Origin: a virus
Virus record (IMG/VR): IMGVR_UViG_3300032073_000236
Location: 1 to 24,613 of that record
Length of the DNA stretch: 24,613 nt
Reading direction: 5' to 3' (one strand)
Shown here piece after piece: positions 8,011-24,072 of the stretch (the first letter of the stretch is position 1; each line of letters starts with the position of its first letter). A program made the translations under genes and the position numbers. Under the pieces are notes generated by a model. The model was not told where the DNA came from. It saw only the letters and a list, made by a program, of their open reading frames with translations, and did not search any database.

Positions 8011-8436
8011 ATGAATGACATAGACGATATATTGGAAGTCATAGACTTATATAAAGATGATTATCCAGTGTGGAACGGAGCAAAGGTCAAAGAAATATTT
8101 TATCACATATATCCATCCATAGTATTAGGACAGTGCAAAGCACATAGAGACGAAGATGGTGTATATGGTTTTAGAAACTGGGCATTCTTGAGTAAGGAAG
8201 CCGAGCAAAAATTTTTAGAAACTAGAGAAATTGGTTTCGATGATTGGAAAAGCGGAGAGAACTTGTGGGTCATCGATTCTATTTTTAAAAGGAAACATAA
8301 CGAGGCTATGCTATACTACAGAACTTTCTTCACACATTTAATAGGAGTTGGTAAACCAGTACAATGGTTGCGTCTTGCAGCTAATGGTTTAATTCGTAGT
8401 CACGTAAAACTTACAACTAGAGAGTATCATCTATAA
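8011..8436 (+). CDS. HlyC-like (RTX toxin-activating) lysine-acyltransferase family protein
   Basis: The 141-residue protein follows the HlyC layout: an N-terminal helix, then IYPSIVLGQCKAHRDEDG (compare HlyC LPAIRANQYAL), NWAFLSKEAEQKFL at 56-69 (HlyC SWANLSLENEIKYL) and DDWKSGENLWVIDSI at 77-91 (HlyC EDWTSGDRKWFIDWI). Asp89 falls on the HlyC catalytic Asp92. The catalytic His23 of HlyC, in its SPLHRNW motif, has no equivalent: this N-terminus reads DLYKDDYPVWNG. The family uses acyl-ACP to acylate internal lysines of RTX toxins. Here it is followed directly, by a one-base overlap, by large virion proteins rather than a toxin. It may modify a virion or host protein, or be a catalytically altered relative. 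No Shine-Dalgarno is evident. The family call is by memory of motifs, not a search. Confidence 0.65.
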   Translation: MNDIDDILEVIDLYKDDYPVWNGAKVKEIFYHIYPSIVLGQCKAHRDEDGVYGFRNWAFLSKEAEQKFLETREIGFDDWKSGENLWVIDSIFKRKHNEAMLYYRTFFTHLIGVGKPVQWLRLAANGLIRSHVKLTTREYHL

Positions 8437-9758
8437 TGGGATCTATTGGTAAAAAAGTTAAAAAAACAGTAAAAAAAGTAGCTAAGCCAGAAGTAATATT
8501 ACCTCTTGCATTATTAGCAGCAACAGGTGGTGGTTCAGCTGCTCTTGGAGCTTTTAAGGGTGCGGGTTTAAAAAACATATTAATGAACCAAGCTATTACA
8601 GCTGGATTATCTAAAGCAACTACAGGTGAAATAGATCCAAAAGCACAATTGTTAGCGTTAGGCATGTCTGGTTTAGCAGGAGCTGCAAAACCTTTTACAG
8701 GCGCAGAATCAATAAAACAATTTGGGGCTTCAACAGGTTTAAGTAAAGATGCATCAGCAGCCTTAGCTCAAAAATTAGCAACTAACCCTGCTTACGTAGC
8801 TCCACAAACAGGTCTTGCTAGTATGTTTGATAAAGGTGCTCAATTTGCAAAAGCTGGTTTTGCTGACCCTCTTTCTTTAAAAGGGGCTGTAACATACGGG
8901 TTGCCAACAGCAGCTGGTGCTATGATGGGATCACCAAAAACAGAAGAACAAAAAAATTTAGGTGTTGATCCTCAAGCGCAATATGATTTAGCAAGATTAA
9001 TGAATCAAAAAATGGGTGGTGCGTATACTGACGAAGAATTAAATACACTAGTCGCACCAATGTTATCACAATATGGTGGTGAGTATGAAACAATTACAGG
9101 CCCAGAAAAAGAAAGACGACCTATGTTTCCAGGATTAAATTATTCAGGACTAACCAGATTTGCAAAAGACGGTGGATCTATAAAACCTAAAAAAAGAAGT
9201 GAAGCTGTTGATGAAATAGTAAATGCTGCAGAGCAAAGAGAAATAATATTAGATGCTCTGTTTGGTGGTGTTAGCCCTGGTGCAAACGAAGAAGCAATGG
9301 CAAATCAAATGTTTGATTTGCGAAGACGACAAAGGTTAAACCCTATGGGTAGAAAAGATGGTGGTTTAATGCAATTAGCATCAGCTCCAGATCCAATGGA
9401 TGAGAGAAATACTATGATGGAGAACTTAGCATTAGATAAATTTGGTAAATCATTAGATCGATTGTCAGATGATGAAATTATACAAATAGAAGACATGATA
9501 GAAAACATGCTGCCAATGGCTAATGGTGGTAGCATACCACAAACTAAAAGTATACCAGCGGGTATGCAATTAAATGGCCGCGGTGGTGGATTCATACCAA
9601 TGGGCGCACAAGAAAAGAAAGATGATGTGCCAGCGATGCTCGCTAAAAATGAATTTGTTATGACATCTGATGCAGTGAAAGCAGCAGGAGGCGGTGACAT
9701 CAATAAAGGTGCACAAAAAATGTATGATTTAATGAATAGTTTGGAGTCTAAAGTATAA
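8436..9758 (+). CDS. Internal virion protein (440 aa), Gly-rich with conserved C-terminal motif
   Basis: The protein begins MGSIGKK with a Lys/Val-rich stretch (KKVKKTVKKVAKPEV) and a hydrophobic Ala/Gly-rich segment (about residues 19-45). It has scattered GG motifs (AKDGGSIK, RKDGGLMQ, ANGGSIPQ) and a C-terminal block at about 394-440 containing DDVPAMLAKNEFVMTSDAV and then AAGGGDINKGAQKMYDLMN. That C-terminal block is familiar to me from virion proteins of marine phages. Two basic and hydrophobic N-terminal features would suit a protein that inserts into or crosses a membrane during DNA ejection. It sits first in a run of four large proteins, joined to its neighbours by TAATG overlaps. Confidence 0.6.
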   Translation: MGSIGKKVKKTVKKVAKPEVILPLALLAATGGGSAALGAFKGAGLKNILMNQAITAGLSKATTGEIDPKAQLLALGMSGLAGAAKPFTGAESIKQFGASTGLSKDASAALAQKLATNPAYVAPQTGLASMFDKGAQFAKAGFADPLSLKGAVTYGLPTAAGAMMGSPKTEEQKNLGVDPQAQYDLARLMNQKMGGAYTDEELNTLVAPMLSQYGGEYETITGPEKERRPMFPGLNYSGLTRFAKDGGSIKPKKRSEAVDEIVNAAEQREIILDALFGGVSPGANEEAMANQMFDLRRRQRLNPMGRKDGGLMQLASAPDPMDERNTMMENLALDKFGKSLDRLSDDEIIQIEDMIENMLPMANGGSIPQTKSIPAGMQLNGRGGGFIPMGAQEKKDDVPAMLAKNEFVMTSDAVKAAGGGDINKGAQKMYDLMNSLESKV

Positions 9759-20301: not shown

Positions 20302-20943
20302 ATGACTTTAATAATAAAAGAAAAAATAATAAAAGAAAATTTAGGCCCTTATAGAACTAATTATAAGTCAATCTTGCAGGTAGCTTCTCATCGCTATCAA
20401 GACAGGGAGGATGTTAGGTGGGCGTATGAAAACAACATACAAGATGGTTTTTTAGACCCTCTTCACAATGAATCAAGTATGTTTGTTATAGAAAGCGAAC
20501 AGTATTTTTTAAGTCATGAAAAAAGATGGGTTAATTTTCACGCCAGTACGTATCCTAGGGTAAACAAAAAACTTCGTTGGAACACTCATGAATACTGGCA
20601 AGAGAGTAACAAACATTTTTGGGAAGATTTAGAATCTGTAGATAATAATAACGCTTTGGTGGATGATTTACAGGAAGGTGTTTTATATAAAGCTGTAATA
20701 GATGCAAATCTTGCTGTTCCTAGTGTTGATAAAGATTTAATGTATCAAACTCACGAAGGTAAATATTATTTTAAACAAGTTGTGAATTACTCTGATGGAG
20801 TTAGCTTTGATTATGATCTTGAGGGAAGACGAGAATGGAATGATTTTCATGATCAGGCAGAACATATTGACTCTTATACGGAGGGTTATTGGAAAAGAAA
20901 CCCTGAATATATGATTAAGCAAAAAATAGAAAGTGTGAATTAG
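20302..20943 (+). CDS. Hypothetical protein (213 aa), Trp/Tyr/His-rich
   Basis: ATG 20302 follows the previous stop by 5 bases. The product is 213 residues with seven tryptophans, many His and Tyr and an acidic overall character (KKLRWNTHEYWQESNKHFWE; GRREWNDFHDQAEHIDSY). The repeated W-x-x-H/F pattern at about 75-115 and 175-205 hints at two related helical units. I do not recognise the family and see no metal-site or nucleotide-binding signature, though the histidines and acidic residues could bind metal. It stops directly before the next ATG at 20944. It may be accessory (moron-like) cargo in the replication module. Confidence 0.55.
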   Translation: MTLIIKEKIIKENLGPYRTNYKSILQVASHRYQDREDVRWAYENNIQDGFLDPLHNESSMFVIESEQYFLSHEKRWVNFHASTYPRVNKKLRWNTHEYWQESNKHFWEDLESVDNNNALVDDLQEGVLYKAVIDANLAVPSVDKDLMYQTHEGKYYFKQVVNYSDGVSFDYDLEGRREWNDFHDQAEHIDSYTEGYWKRNPEYMIKQKIESVN

Positions 20944-21501
20944 ATGGTAGAAATAAACGACATTGATTTTGAAGAAGATCAACAAAACATAATAGAGAAA
21001 ACAGATATTCAAACACTGGCATCTTACTGTCAAGAGTTGCAACAAACTGAAGATCACATTGCAATGTTGGAGAAAGAAGTCAAAACACAAAAAGAAAAAG
21101 CAGACAAGATTGGTTCAGAGATCATACCTAATATGCTCGCGGAGCAAGGGCTATCATCTTTGAAATTAGCTGACGGCAGTTCTATTGATGTACGAAAGTC
21201 ATACAACTGCACCATCAAAAAAGATCAGATGGAGTTAGCTTACAACTGGCTTCGAGAGAACGGACTTGGTGACATCATTAAAAATGAGGTTGCTGTACAG
21301 TTCGGGAAAGGCGAAGATAACAAGGCGGAGCAATTGCTTACCCTTGCAGAGCACGAAGGTTATGAGCCTACCCAAAAACAAAAGGTAGAACCCATGACAT
21401 TGAAGGCTCTCTTTAGAGAGCGTGTCGAGGCCGGCCTCGACATGCCCTCACAACTCTTTAATATTTTTATTAAAGATCAAACAAAAATAGGCCGGAAATA
21501 A
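20944..21501 (+). CDS. Conserved replication-module protein with N-terminal coiled coil (185 aa)
   Basis: Residues about 20-60 form a coiled coil (CQELQQTEDHIAMLEKEVKT). A small domain follows with SEIIPNMLAEQGLSSLKLAD (58-77), a beta hairpin DGSSIDVRKSYNCTI and a helix ELAYNWLRENGLGDII (97-112), then PMTLKALFRERVEAGLDMP (150-168). I have seen this combination in phage proteins encoded just upstream of the phage SSB; none has a firmly known function to my knowledge. The tight link (13-base gap) to SSB suggests a partner in replication or recombination. The 3' end of the coding region holds three consecutive inverted repeats (21407-21476), described separately. Confidence 0.6.
   Translation: MVEINDIDFEEDQQNIIEKTDIQTLASYCQELQQTEDHIAMLEKEVKTQKEKADKIGSEIIPNMLAEQGLSSLKLADGSSIDVRKSYNCTIKKDQMELAYNWLRENGLGDIIKNEVAVQFGKGEDNKAEQLLTLAEHEGYEPTQKQKVEPMTLKALFRERVEAGLDMPSQLFNIFIKDQTKIGRK
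21407..21476. repeat. Cluster of three inverted repeats inside a coding region
   Basis: Three adjacent palindromic units occur within 70 bases. First, CTCTCTTTAGAGAG (21407-21420) with 6-bp arms. Second, TGTCGAGGCCGGCCTCGACA (21423-21442), a perfect 20-bp palindrome that extends to 21421-21444 with one G-U pair and could fold in RNA as a 10-bp stem with a CCGG loop. Third, TCTTTAAT (21455-21462) and ATTAAAGA (21469-21476), 8-bp arms around a 6-base loop. It could be a replication origin element, a protein-binding site or an mRNA structure acting on the SSB gene 39 bases downstream. Confidence 0.75.
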
Positions 21502-21514
21502 GGAAACAAGAAAC

Positions 21515-22279
21515 ATGAACCAAGTAGCGAAAAAAGAAAAATCAGACGTAGCCTTAACAGGTATGTTTGAAGAAGATGCTAACACGAGTTTTAGTAACAT
21601 GGGGTCTGACGACTTTGCGTTGCCATTTCTTAGAGTGTTAGGTCAATTGTCACCCGAGACAAACAAACGGGACGCCAAGTATGTGGAAGGTGCTGAACCA
21701 GGTATGATATTCAATACCGTGACTAAGCAACTATACGATGGTGAGAAGGGCGTCAGCATAATACCGTGTTATTATAAACGCGAGTATGTTGAGTGGTCTG
21801 ATCGTGGTGAGGGCACCAGTGCTCCTATTGCGATACACGCAGTCGACAGCGGTATCATTAAAGATACAACACGAGATGCAAGTTACAAAGATAGATTACC
21901 AAACGGCAACTATCTAGAGAACACAGCATCGTATTTCGTGCTGTTGGAAAGTGGTGAGGCTGCTTTGATTTCTATGAAATCTACACAGTTAAAAGTGAGT
22001 AGATCGTGGAACTCAATGATGAACAGTATCAAACTTAAAGGTAAGAATGGTATGTTCACACCGGCTATGTGTAGTCACGTGTACAACTTAAAGACAGTGC
22101 AACAATCAAATGACAAGGGAACTTGGTTTGGTTGGAGTATAGAAAAGGTTGGTCCTGTTCAAGACAAAGGTCTATACGAGCAGGCAAAGAGTTTTGCTGT
22201 AAGCGCTAACAAAGGTGACGTTACTGCAAAACATGGTGAAGAAGATACTAAGTCTAAAAAAGACGAAGTACCGTTTTAA
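21515..22279 (+). CDS. Phage single-stranded DNA-binding protein
   Basis: The 254-residue protein ends in KSKKDEVPF, which matches the acidic SSB C-terminal tip (D-D-x-I/V-P-F) used to recruit replication partners. The body is beta-rich, consistent with an OB fold: SDDFALPFLRVLGQLSPE (31-48), YVEGAEPGMIFNTVTKQLYD (56-75), VSIIPCYYKREYVEWSDRG (80-98), LESGEAALISMKSTQLKVS and GTWFGWSIEKVGPV. The N-terminal F.LPFLRVLGQLSP and PGMIFNTVT blocks are shared with proteins annotated as phage SSB or hypothetical in marine phages. AAGGAAAC upstream serves as ribosome binding site. It lies beside primase and helicase genes. The family is assigned by pattern; the SSB function rests largely on the tail and the context. 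Confidence 0.7.
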   Translation: MNQVAKKEKSDVALTGMFEEDANTSFSNMGSDDFALPFLRVLGQLSPETNKRDAKYVEGAEPGMIFNTVTKQLYDGEKGVSIIPCYYKREYVEWSDRGEGTSAPIAIHAVDSGIIKDTTRDASYKDRLPNGNYLENTASYFVLLESGEAALISMKSTQLKVSRSWNSMMNSIKLKGKNGMFTPAMCSHVYNLKTVQQSNDKGTWFGWSIEKVGPVQDKGLYEQAKSFAVSANKGDVTAKHGEEDTKSKKDEVPF

Positions 22280-22284
22280 TCATG

Positions 22285-22319
22285 TAGGCCCACCGACTAC
22301 CCCCCTGTTGGTGGGCCTA
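22285..22319 (+). terminator. GC-rich hairpin between SSB and primase-side genes
   Basis: TAGGCCCACC (22285-22294) pairs perfectly with GGTGGGCCTA (22310-22319); three more inner pairs (one G-U) give a 13-bp stem with a 9-base C-rich loop. It begins 6 bases after the SSB stop. The downstream bases AATTATATAG are not a proper U-tract, so it may be a weak or partial terminator, or an mRNA end-protection or processing hairpin rather than a strong intrinsic terminator. Confidence 0.6.
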
Positions 22320-22562: not shown

Positions 22563-24072
22563 AGAAATATTTGAAGGTAACAATAGTGCCTTTGGTCAAC
22601 TAATTTTATCAGGATCAACGACAGATAAAGGTAAAGCAGAAGGTAAAGCGTTTATAAAACGTCAACCGGTTATAGATAAACTTTGGGAAGATCACCTGGA
22701 GGGTAAAGATCCGGCTCTTGGAGTTATACCAATCAACGAGAACAATGAATGTAAGTGGGGTTGTATTGATGTAGATCAATATAACTTAGACCATTTATCT
22801 ATTATGCGTAATATAAAAGGGTTTGGTTTTCCGTTGGTCACATTTAGATCAAAGTCTGGTGGAGCGCATCTATTTTTATTTGCAAAAGATTTTATACCTG
22901 CAGCATTAATGCAGTCAAAACTAAAAGCTATGGCTGAGGCTTTGGGTTTCGGTGGTAGTGAAATATTTCCAAAACAAACTGAGATACTCGTGGAGCGTGG
23001 AGACACAGGTAATTTTTTAAATCTACCTTACCATGGTGGCACCAGAGGACTTAGGTATACATTTAAGGCTGGAGGTGAAGCTGCTAGTTTAGAATCATTC
23101 TATTCTATATATGATGAGTGGGTACAGACAAAAGAACAAATAGAAAATATTATCGTCAAACAAAAAGCAGAGAGCAACGATGCTTTTAAAGATGGTCCAC
23201 CTTGCCTAAATAAGTTGGCTCAAGATGGTTTTGGTGAAGGATCTCGGAACAATGCACTATTTAACGTGGCCGTCTATCACAAACAAGCAAGCCCAGACAA
23301 CTGGGAAGACAAGGTCATGGAGGACAATAGCAAGTGGATGAACCCGCCTTTAAGCTTTCAAGAAGTTAAACAGTTATTAGGTTCTGTTGGTAAACGAGGC
23401 TACGATAAATACAGATGCAAAGAGCAACCGATATGTGGTGTATGTAATGCTGCAAAATGTAGAACTAAAAAATTTGGTGTTGGTTTTGAAGAAGAGCAAA
23501 TGCCAGAGTTAGATACACTAACAAAAATTACATCTAACCCACCACAATGGTTTTTAAATGTTGGTGGCAAACGTGTAGAATTAAAAACAGAACAACTACA
23601 CAATCCTAATTTATTTGCAATCGCAGTATTAGATCAAGCGAACGTGGTGTCACCTATACCAAAGGCAGCAGACTGGAGAGAGATTTATCTAAAAACTTTG
23701 ATGAATAACTTACAAGAAATAGAACCATTGGAATCATTAGATCCAATAAACCAAATAGTAAATTTATTATATGACTTCACAGTCAACAGACCTGCGGCAA
23801 GAACCAAAGAAGATATACTTAACAAAATGTCCTGGACTGATGAAGGGCACACATATTTTAGAATGGATGACTTCTATTCTTTTTGTAAACGAAACAACTG
23901 GGAGATGGATAAAATAAAAACAGGTAACTTAATAAAAACTTTGAAAGATGTTTTTGTGAAAGAAGAACGGATAACTTTGAAGAATCAAACACCAAGACTT
24001 GTTAAGATAAAAGCGATGAGAAAAACAAAACCAGAGGTTAGCCAAGAGAAATATCAGGAGACGCCTTTCTAA
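22549..24072 (+). CDS. AEP-superfamily primase (TOTE-type primase domain)
   Basis: The 507-residue protein has the archaeo-eukaryotic primase core: motif I GCIDVDQYN with Asp74 and Asp76 as metal ligands, motif II RSKSGGAHLFLF (100-111) with His107, and GGSEIFPKQTEI (135-146), which fits the phage/TOTE-like primase family. After it, GEGSRNNALFNVAVY and NPPLSFQEVKQLLGSVGKRG (265-284) resemble a PriCT-like helical domain, followed by a four-cysteine cluster C290/C296/C299/C304 (RCKEQPICGVCNAAKCR) likely to bind zinc. Residues 330-507 include a winged-helix-like segment (RMDDFYSFCKRNNWEMDKIK). No helicase domain is fused; the next gene supplies a helicase. It makes primers for phage DNA replication. 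It overlaps both neighbours. Confidence 0.75.
   Translation: MQRFKEIFEGNNSAFGQLILSGSTTDKGKAEGKAFIKRQPVIDKLWEDHLEGKDPALGVIPINENNECKWGCIDVDQYNLDHLSIMRNIKGFGFPLVTFRSKSGGAHLFLFAKDFIPAALMQSKLKAMAEALGFGGSEIFPKQTEILVERGDTGNFLNLPYHGGTRGLRYTFKAGGEAASLESFYSIYDEWVQTKEQIENIIVKQKAESNDAFKDGPPCLNKLAQDGFGEGSRNNALFNVAVYHKQASPDNWEDKVMEDNSKWMNPPLSFQEVKQLLGSVGKRGYDKYRCKEQPICGVCNAAKCRTKKFGVGFEEEQMPELDTLTKITSNPPQWFLNVGGKRVELKTEQLHNPNLFAIAVLDQANVVSPIPKAADWREIYLKTLMNNLQEIEPLESLDPINQIVNLLYDFTVNRPAARTKEDILNKMSWTDEGHTYFRMDDFYSFCKRNNWEMDKIKTGNLIKTLKDVFVKEERITLKNQTPRLVKIKAMRKTKPEVSQEKYQETPF

Follow-up and report, generated by a model that had tools for sequence, protein, structure and literature searches.

In phage T4, translation of gene 32 is repressed by its product, gp32, which binds a pseudoknot in the mRNA leader and spreads over the unstructured region of the ribosome-binding site (PMC535899, PMC3014915). 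The gene 32 pseudoknot spans ~28 nt; downstream of it come over 40 nt of leader that contain UUAAA repeats (PMC535899). In the window analysed here, a 24,613-nucleotide marine phage fragment (IMG/VR record IMGVR_UViG_3300032073_000236), the last third of the ORF for a Pam3 gp33-like protein carries an RNA structure of ~175 nt (21321–21495), ending 5 nt before the SD-like site of the gene for gp34, an SSB-like protein. We put the probability that this element is a cis-acting translational operator for autogenous control of gp34 at roughly 0.47.

The locus and its relatives

The gp33-like gene is followed by the gp34-like gene and then by a gene for an AEP-type primase. The features of the locus are as follows.

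20944–21501, + strand: host ORF, Pam3 gp33-like protein (DUF7307), 185 aa; PF23984 E 2.2e-33, phrog_2378 E 1.2e-45
21321–21325 with 21342–21346 and 21328–21331 with 21336–21339, + strand: helix P0, hairpin CAAGG..GAGC-AAUU-GCUU..CCUUG; helix score and frozen codons
21348–21352 with 21406–21410, + strand: helix P1, AGAGC with GCUCU, closing ~53 nt; covariation
21357–21359 with 21367–21369, + strand: tentative short helix P2; helix score 6.2 and RNAalifold
21420–21429 with 21436–21445, + strand: pseudoknot stem 1 (S1), holding the 20-bp palindrome; 99.3% of cells paired
21430, + strand: pseudoknot loop 1, one nucleotide; position 163.1, G or U in relatives
21431–21435, + strand: 5′ strand of stem 2 (S2), CCGGC, the apex of the palindrome; best partner 21491–21495
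21456–21462 with 21469–21475, + strand: hairpin H3 within pseudoknot loop 3, the third repeat; 95.1% of cells paired
21491–21495, + strand: 3′ strand of stem 2, GCCGG, codons 183–184; loop/tail covariation
21496–21514, + strand: unstructured A-rich stretch with the gp33 stop (21499–21501) and an AAGGA SD-like site (21500–21504)
21515–22279, + strand: gp34-like ORF (Pam3 gp34-like), 254 aa, predicted OB-fold ssDNA-binding protein; PF23977 E 6.2e-69

The closest named relative, MW574966, is 58% identical in gp33 and is reported as an HTVC023P-type pelagiphage genome (PMC9599517), from which we infer a SAR11 host for the phage of the window. An ORF of 213 aa (20302–20943), unmatched in Pfam and PHROG, lies between the gp32-like and gp33-like genes; the annotated gene preceding the gp33-like gene in phage 023Pt_psg01 ends just 2 nt upstream of it.

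The gp33 clade carrying the element spans ~53–99% protein identity and was sampled from IMG/VR relatives as 192 distinct coding sequences (151 distinct at the 3′ end). All are metagenomic contigs, with some overlap from one search to another, and identical sequences were dropped before counting. A gp34 ORF lies directly 3′ of gp33 in 135 of the 151, with most remaining cases truncated by the contig end. The element occurs on two contigs (L445 and L446) from the MAG Flavobacteriaceae ARS19; these are probably phage contigs binned with a bacterial genome. Another locus, L442, is only 43% identical to HTVC027P gp02 and retains the pseudoknot motif in full (GCCGGC in the loop, AGCCGG in the tail), its H3 being written differently. 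As a candidate for an equivalent structure in HTVC027P relatives, a CCACGAACGTGG hairpin was rejected, being lost in close sisters.

Inverted repeats and frozen codons

A first-pass annotation had noted three consecutive inverted repeats, including a perfect 20-bp palindrome, before a gene that it guessed to encode an SSB, and all three are present in the sequence. The first is GCTCTC-TTTA-GAGAGC (21406–21421), the second is the palindrome TGTCGAGGCCGGCCTCGACA (21423–21442, extending to 21421–21444 with one G.T) and the third is TCTTTAATA-TTTT-TATTAAAGA (21455–21476). The accompanying hand estimate of 0.02 zero-gap palindromes of this length per window held up against dinucleotide shuffles, which give 0.027, and the 20-mer is the sole zero-gap perfect palindrome of at least 20 nt in the window. 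As conserved structure, the second and third repeats stand and the first does not: pair 155.3–159.2 of its hairpin is formed in just 33% of sequences, and its 5′ arm pairs upstream, in helix P1.

Sharing the longest-arm rank in the window with the palindrome is an inverted repeat at 9300–9321 (GCAAATCAAATGTTTGATTTGC, perfect 10-bp arms, 2-base loop) inside ORF 8436–9758. A GC-rich inverted repeat (TAGGCCCACCGAC..GTTGGTGGGCCTA, 22285–22319) immediately follows the gp34 stop; it has no T-run and is not a classic terminator. An internal promoter (promoter-like TCGACA/TAATAT, 21437–21464) was discarded, its occurrence being at chance level and its bases varying between relatives.

Synonymous codons in the element are frozen. 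Across the gp33 clade Arg160 is CGT in 192/192, Glu159 is GAG in 191/191 and Glu162 is GAG in 187/189, and Arg184 is CGG in 176/188, yet CGG makes up 1.7% of Arg codons in this genome; third positions elsewhere in gp33 have a median of 23 substitutions on the tree. Relatives within the clade do not freely lose the palindrome, a check that the first-pass annotation had proposed. Only in more distant lineages is it lost by synonymous change, and in these lineages, which lack stem 1, the tail CCGG is lost too. Together with the co-changing pairs described below, the frozen codons bear out the suggestion that the nucleic-acid sequence, and not only the protein, is under selection.

Protein constraint with codon bias could in principle make the palindrome incidental, gp33 simply needing RER[VI]EAGLDMP, and in distant relatives a similar peptide, RERIEAGKDMP, does persist where the palindrome is absent. 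Synonymous sites and covariation contradict this explanation and leave it scarcely credible: sites are frozen to genome-rare codons (CGG, as above, and CTC at 3.1% of synonyms; CCC at 2.8% and GCC at 7.8% also occur in the palindrome region), paired partners change together, and in 20,000 redraws of the codons for residues 156–170 under the genome's own usage no such palindrome arose.

Helices, pseudoknot and strand

Covariation was judged against our own simulated null on a FastTree/Fitch reconstruction, not with R-scape, and compensatory changes were counted on a tree of gp33 codons 8–150; the covariation signal could be inflated by recombination between phages. The helix scan exceeds the simulated null for P0, S1 and H3. 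Control scans gave a top score of 4.8 in gp34, and 11.7 followed by 4.0 in the primase gene; P0 and S1 are clear of both controls and H3 is clear of gp34 only. Helices scoring 5–6 are tentative; the case for P1 and for S2 comes from a focused test of each. Over the full named structure, pseudoknot included, 95.3% of cells are paired, against 28–43% in slid registers. RNAalifold independently recovers P0, stem 1, H3 and the short P2.

Two further signals lie outside the named structure. The control score of 11.7 comes from a covarying local helix in primase codons 146–154 (~22984–23010; simulated-null maximum 2.4), perhaps another conserved mRNA structure. In gp33 itself, codons 75–77 and 97–99 (21166–21174 with 21232–21240) have nested co-changing third positions (76.3–98.3, 75.3–99.3 and 77.3–97.3), and folding may extend along more of the gp33 mRNA.

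At the upstream end is P0 (codons 126–135), with a helix score of 24.8 against a simulated-null maximum of 2.7; Leu134 is CTT in 151/151 and Lys127 is AAG in 143/143 Lys codons. P1 joins codons 135–137 to 154–156. All five of its pairs form in every sequence of one clade (n = 65), where pair 136.2–155.3 is UA in 34, AU in 26, CG in 4 and GC in 1 (65/65 paired). The remaining 86 sequences use a register slipped by one base, in which three pairs form in 94–95%, the key pair in 95%, and two in 80% and 59%. Same-branch double changes in P1 lead from one Watson–Crick pair to another in 13/15 and 9/11 cases. The first pair of the tentative P2 is broken in 20 of 70 sequences.

Stem 1 pairs codons 159–162 with codons 165–168. 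Its pair 161.1–166.3 is AU in 94 sequences, GC in 51, GU in 4 and UA in 1, with one unpaired; all 17 of its 17 same-branch double changes go from Watson–Crick to Watson–Crick, and it ranks first of 19,110 column pairs. Val/Ile161 is thus swapped jointly with the synonymous GAC/GAT of Asp166.

The palindrome apex pairs with the end of the gp33 ORF. In a scan of partners for the five loop bases, 183.2–184.3 came first of 541 at 95.9% paired, supported by 7 compensatory events; the second-best partner, 84.9% paired, had none. Among the 192 sequences the loop/tail combinations include CCGG/CCGG (152), CCGG/UCGG (24), CTGG/CCAG (3) and CTGG/TCAG (1), so that each of the four CTGG loops faces a tail in which Arg has become Gln. 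Pair 164.3–183.2 is CG in 96, GC in 37 and UG in 5 of 151 sequences. The generic helix score of stem 2, 4.8, equals the best control score in gp34. Non-synonymous partner changes that keep pairing include both Val/Ile161 and Arg184Gln. In H3, compensatory changes number 7/7 at 173.3–176.1 and 6/7 at 173.1–176.3, and pairing persists through N/H/S173 and I/V176 changes.

The resulting layout of ~76 nt (stem 1 of 10 bp, loop 1 of 1 nt, stem 2 of 5 bp, no loop 2, and a loop 3 containing H3) is plausibly that of an H-type pseudoknot, the comparative evidence pointing to hairpin-loop bases paired with a downstream single strand. H-type pseudoknots stimulate programmed ribosomal frameshifting in other viruses. 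That this one does so within gp33 has next to no probability, as an upstream slippery heptamer occurs in just 7/151 sequences and the −1 frame closes at once in many, without a common length.

The stability of stem 1 (−18.6 kcal/mol) and the several helices in a row over ~175 nt would also suit an element for mRNA processing or stability, or a stable RNA freed from the 3′ end of gp33 (an RNase barrier, a processing site or a 3′-derived small RNA); stability and processing are both known for T4 gene 32 mRNA (PMC535899, PMC3014915). We consider such a role rather improbable: a simple stabilising hairpin needs no conserved pseudoknot, fixed loop or near-fixed sequence, and there is no U-tract. 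The missing U-tract also argues against an intrinsic terminator; a GC hairpin with a T-run was looked for and none lies at the element.

Substitution counts at paired third positions differ with the mismatch that a synonymous transition would create on the mRNA. Sites at which this is G.U have 20, 11, 23, 19, 14 and 6 substitutions; sites at which it is A.C have 0, 0, 2, 2, 5 (all G>T), 1 and 0. Such an asymmetry is not expected of a duplex-DNA site, and with G.U-giving changes common and A.C-giving changes almost absent, it argues for a structure in sense-strand RNA; formally, a folded sense strand would also be compatible with single-stranded DNA. Pairing is kept by covariation beyond phylogeny, and the signal is strand-specific, G.U being tolerated and A.C not. 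Judged by this comparison of relatives, selection on the helices and the pseudoknot acts on the sense-strand RNA, independently of the protein, and the RNA structure itself is very probably real.

A double-stranded DNA site (a replication origin, or an initiator, partition or recombination site) is correspondingly very unlikely. Although a perfect GC-rich 20-bp palindrome adjoins an AT-rich one within a replication gene cluster, arm sequences vary while pairing persists, and the symmetry is broken by G.U-type changes, for example TCC/GGG in 37/151, in addition to the strand asymmetry of substitutions. There is a single strong site per phage genome; in whole phage genomes, a search for second copies found weak matches only besides the gp33 site. 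Among the matches listed for the motif elsewhere, all AT-rich ones are in gp33 and the other 44 are, by eye, GC-rich sequence. GC-skew analysis, which the first-pass annotation had suggested for locating an origin, detects no switch at the repeats. Of its proposals, an origin and an initiator or partition binding site do not fit; the best fit is the third, an mRNA structure that acts on the SSB transcript.

The gp34 gene and its possible operator

gp34 is likely an SSB, a call that began as a guess from sequence and now has moderate support from fold matches of the model and from acidic tails. The model has a pLDDT of 81.9, with residues 240–254 below 50. Foldseek returned no match for it at E ≤ 0.001; a second look at the fold gave phiC31 RDF (Z 9.4), BRCA2 OB folds (7.0) and, third, the RB69 gp32 core (163 residues, a modest Z of 6.6, below 8), and also lists RPA and bacterial SSBs at Z 4–5. 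Nearly all gp34 relatives have an acidic C-terminal tail ending in [TV]P[FY], such as DEVPF, EDVPF or DSTPY. A sequence search of gp34 against solved structures and a second look at the gp33 fold were uninformative.

Between the pseudoknot and the gp34 start codon, on the same mRNA strand, is an unstructured leader (AAATAAGGAAACAAGAAACATG): the segment 21496–21540, which covers the leader up to the gp34 ATG (21515), folds at 0.0 kcal/mol, and the SD itself is unpaired. No UUAAA or UAAA repeats occur over the ribosome-binding site in this leader.

This anatomy (a pseudoknot, an unstructured A-rich leader and an SSB-like gene) matches the logic of T4, for which reason we favour autogenous translational control. 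By analogy, gp34 may bind this RNA and repress its own translation. Once in excess over the available phage ssDNA, gp34 would occupy the pseudoknot together with the A-rich leader next to it and stop further translation of its own message, in the manner of T4 gp32; with ssDNA abundant, the leader would stay free. Ribosomes finishing gp33 would melt the structure and so couple control of gp34 to translation of gp33.

Several observations count against the operator. The element exceeds that of T4 in size and, being within coding sequence, is disrupted by elongating ribosomes; the distance from it to the apparent gp34 start varies between relatives; the gp34 fold matches are modest; and distant relatives with the same gene order lack it. 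The primase control helix at 11.7 counts likewise, as there may be mRNA structure at other sites too.

The same structural evidence would serve a translation element acting without a protein, one that determines gp34 initiation, or how this is coupled to termination of gp33, or that senses a small molecule, gp34 not being the ligand. SD-proximal pseudoknots occur in riboswitches and ribosomal-protein operators, and the present one resembles them in lying 5 nt before an SD-like site and in its H-type geometry with a one-nucleotide loop 1. We regard this alternative as unlikely, at perhaps one chance in a few: Rfam gives no credible match in 20900–21900 at gathering score, the SD is not paired, and an SSB-like next gene makes autoregulation the simpler reading.

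If the autogenous operator is real, the locus could tentatively be a second, independently evolved phage SSB autoregulation through an mRNA pseudoknot, somewhat short of an even chance in our estimate. That system, in marine phages akin to the HTVC023P-type pelagiphages, would be a multi-helix RNA of ~175 nt wholly inside the upstream coding sequence, in which amino acids have changed so as to preserve RNA pairing; searching the literature for the element in pelagiphages gave no result. A second, unrelated case upstream of an SSB-like gene would mean that SSBs are prone to being wired to mRNA pseudoknots. It would also offer probing experiments a compact conserved RNA of which over 150 natural variants exist, and account for frozen rare codons inside phage ORFs.

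Set against known families, both ORFs are clear members of the Pam3 gp33 and gp34 families (PF23984 and PF23977), and the RNA element is not a feature of these, being missing in HTVC027P-like and HTVC023P-like relatives. Like the E. coli rpsO (S15) operator and the SAM-II and preQ1 riboswitches, it has an H-type pseudoknot adjoining the site where translation of the target gene, here a presumed one, begins; unlike in these, the SD is outside the pseudoknot, and Rfam gives no match.

Among the nearest known systems is the gene 32 operator of T4, RB69 and T2, which likewise has an H-type pseudoknot upstream of a phage SSB-type gene and an unstructured A-rich leader over the ribosome-binding site; the likeness to RB69 extends to the gp32 core among the gp34 fold matches. 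The two differ in that there is no sequence relation, the pseudoknot here is ~76 nt rather than ~28 nt, holds a hairpin in loop 3 and ends 5 nt from the SD, extra helices lie upstream, the whole is within the upstream ORF, and UUAAA repeats are absent. On account of its own sequence and size, the additional helices, the missing UUAAA repeats and its position within an ORF, we class the element not as a T4-type operator but only as one that may work like it.
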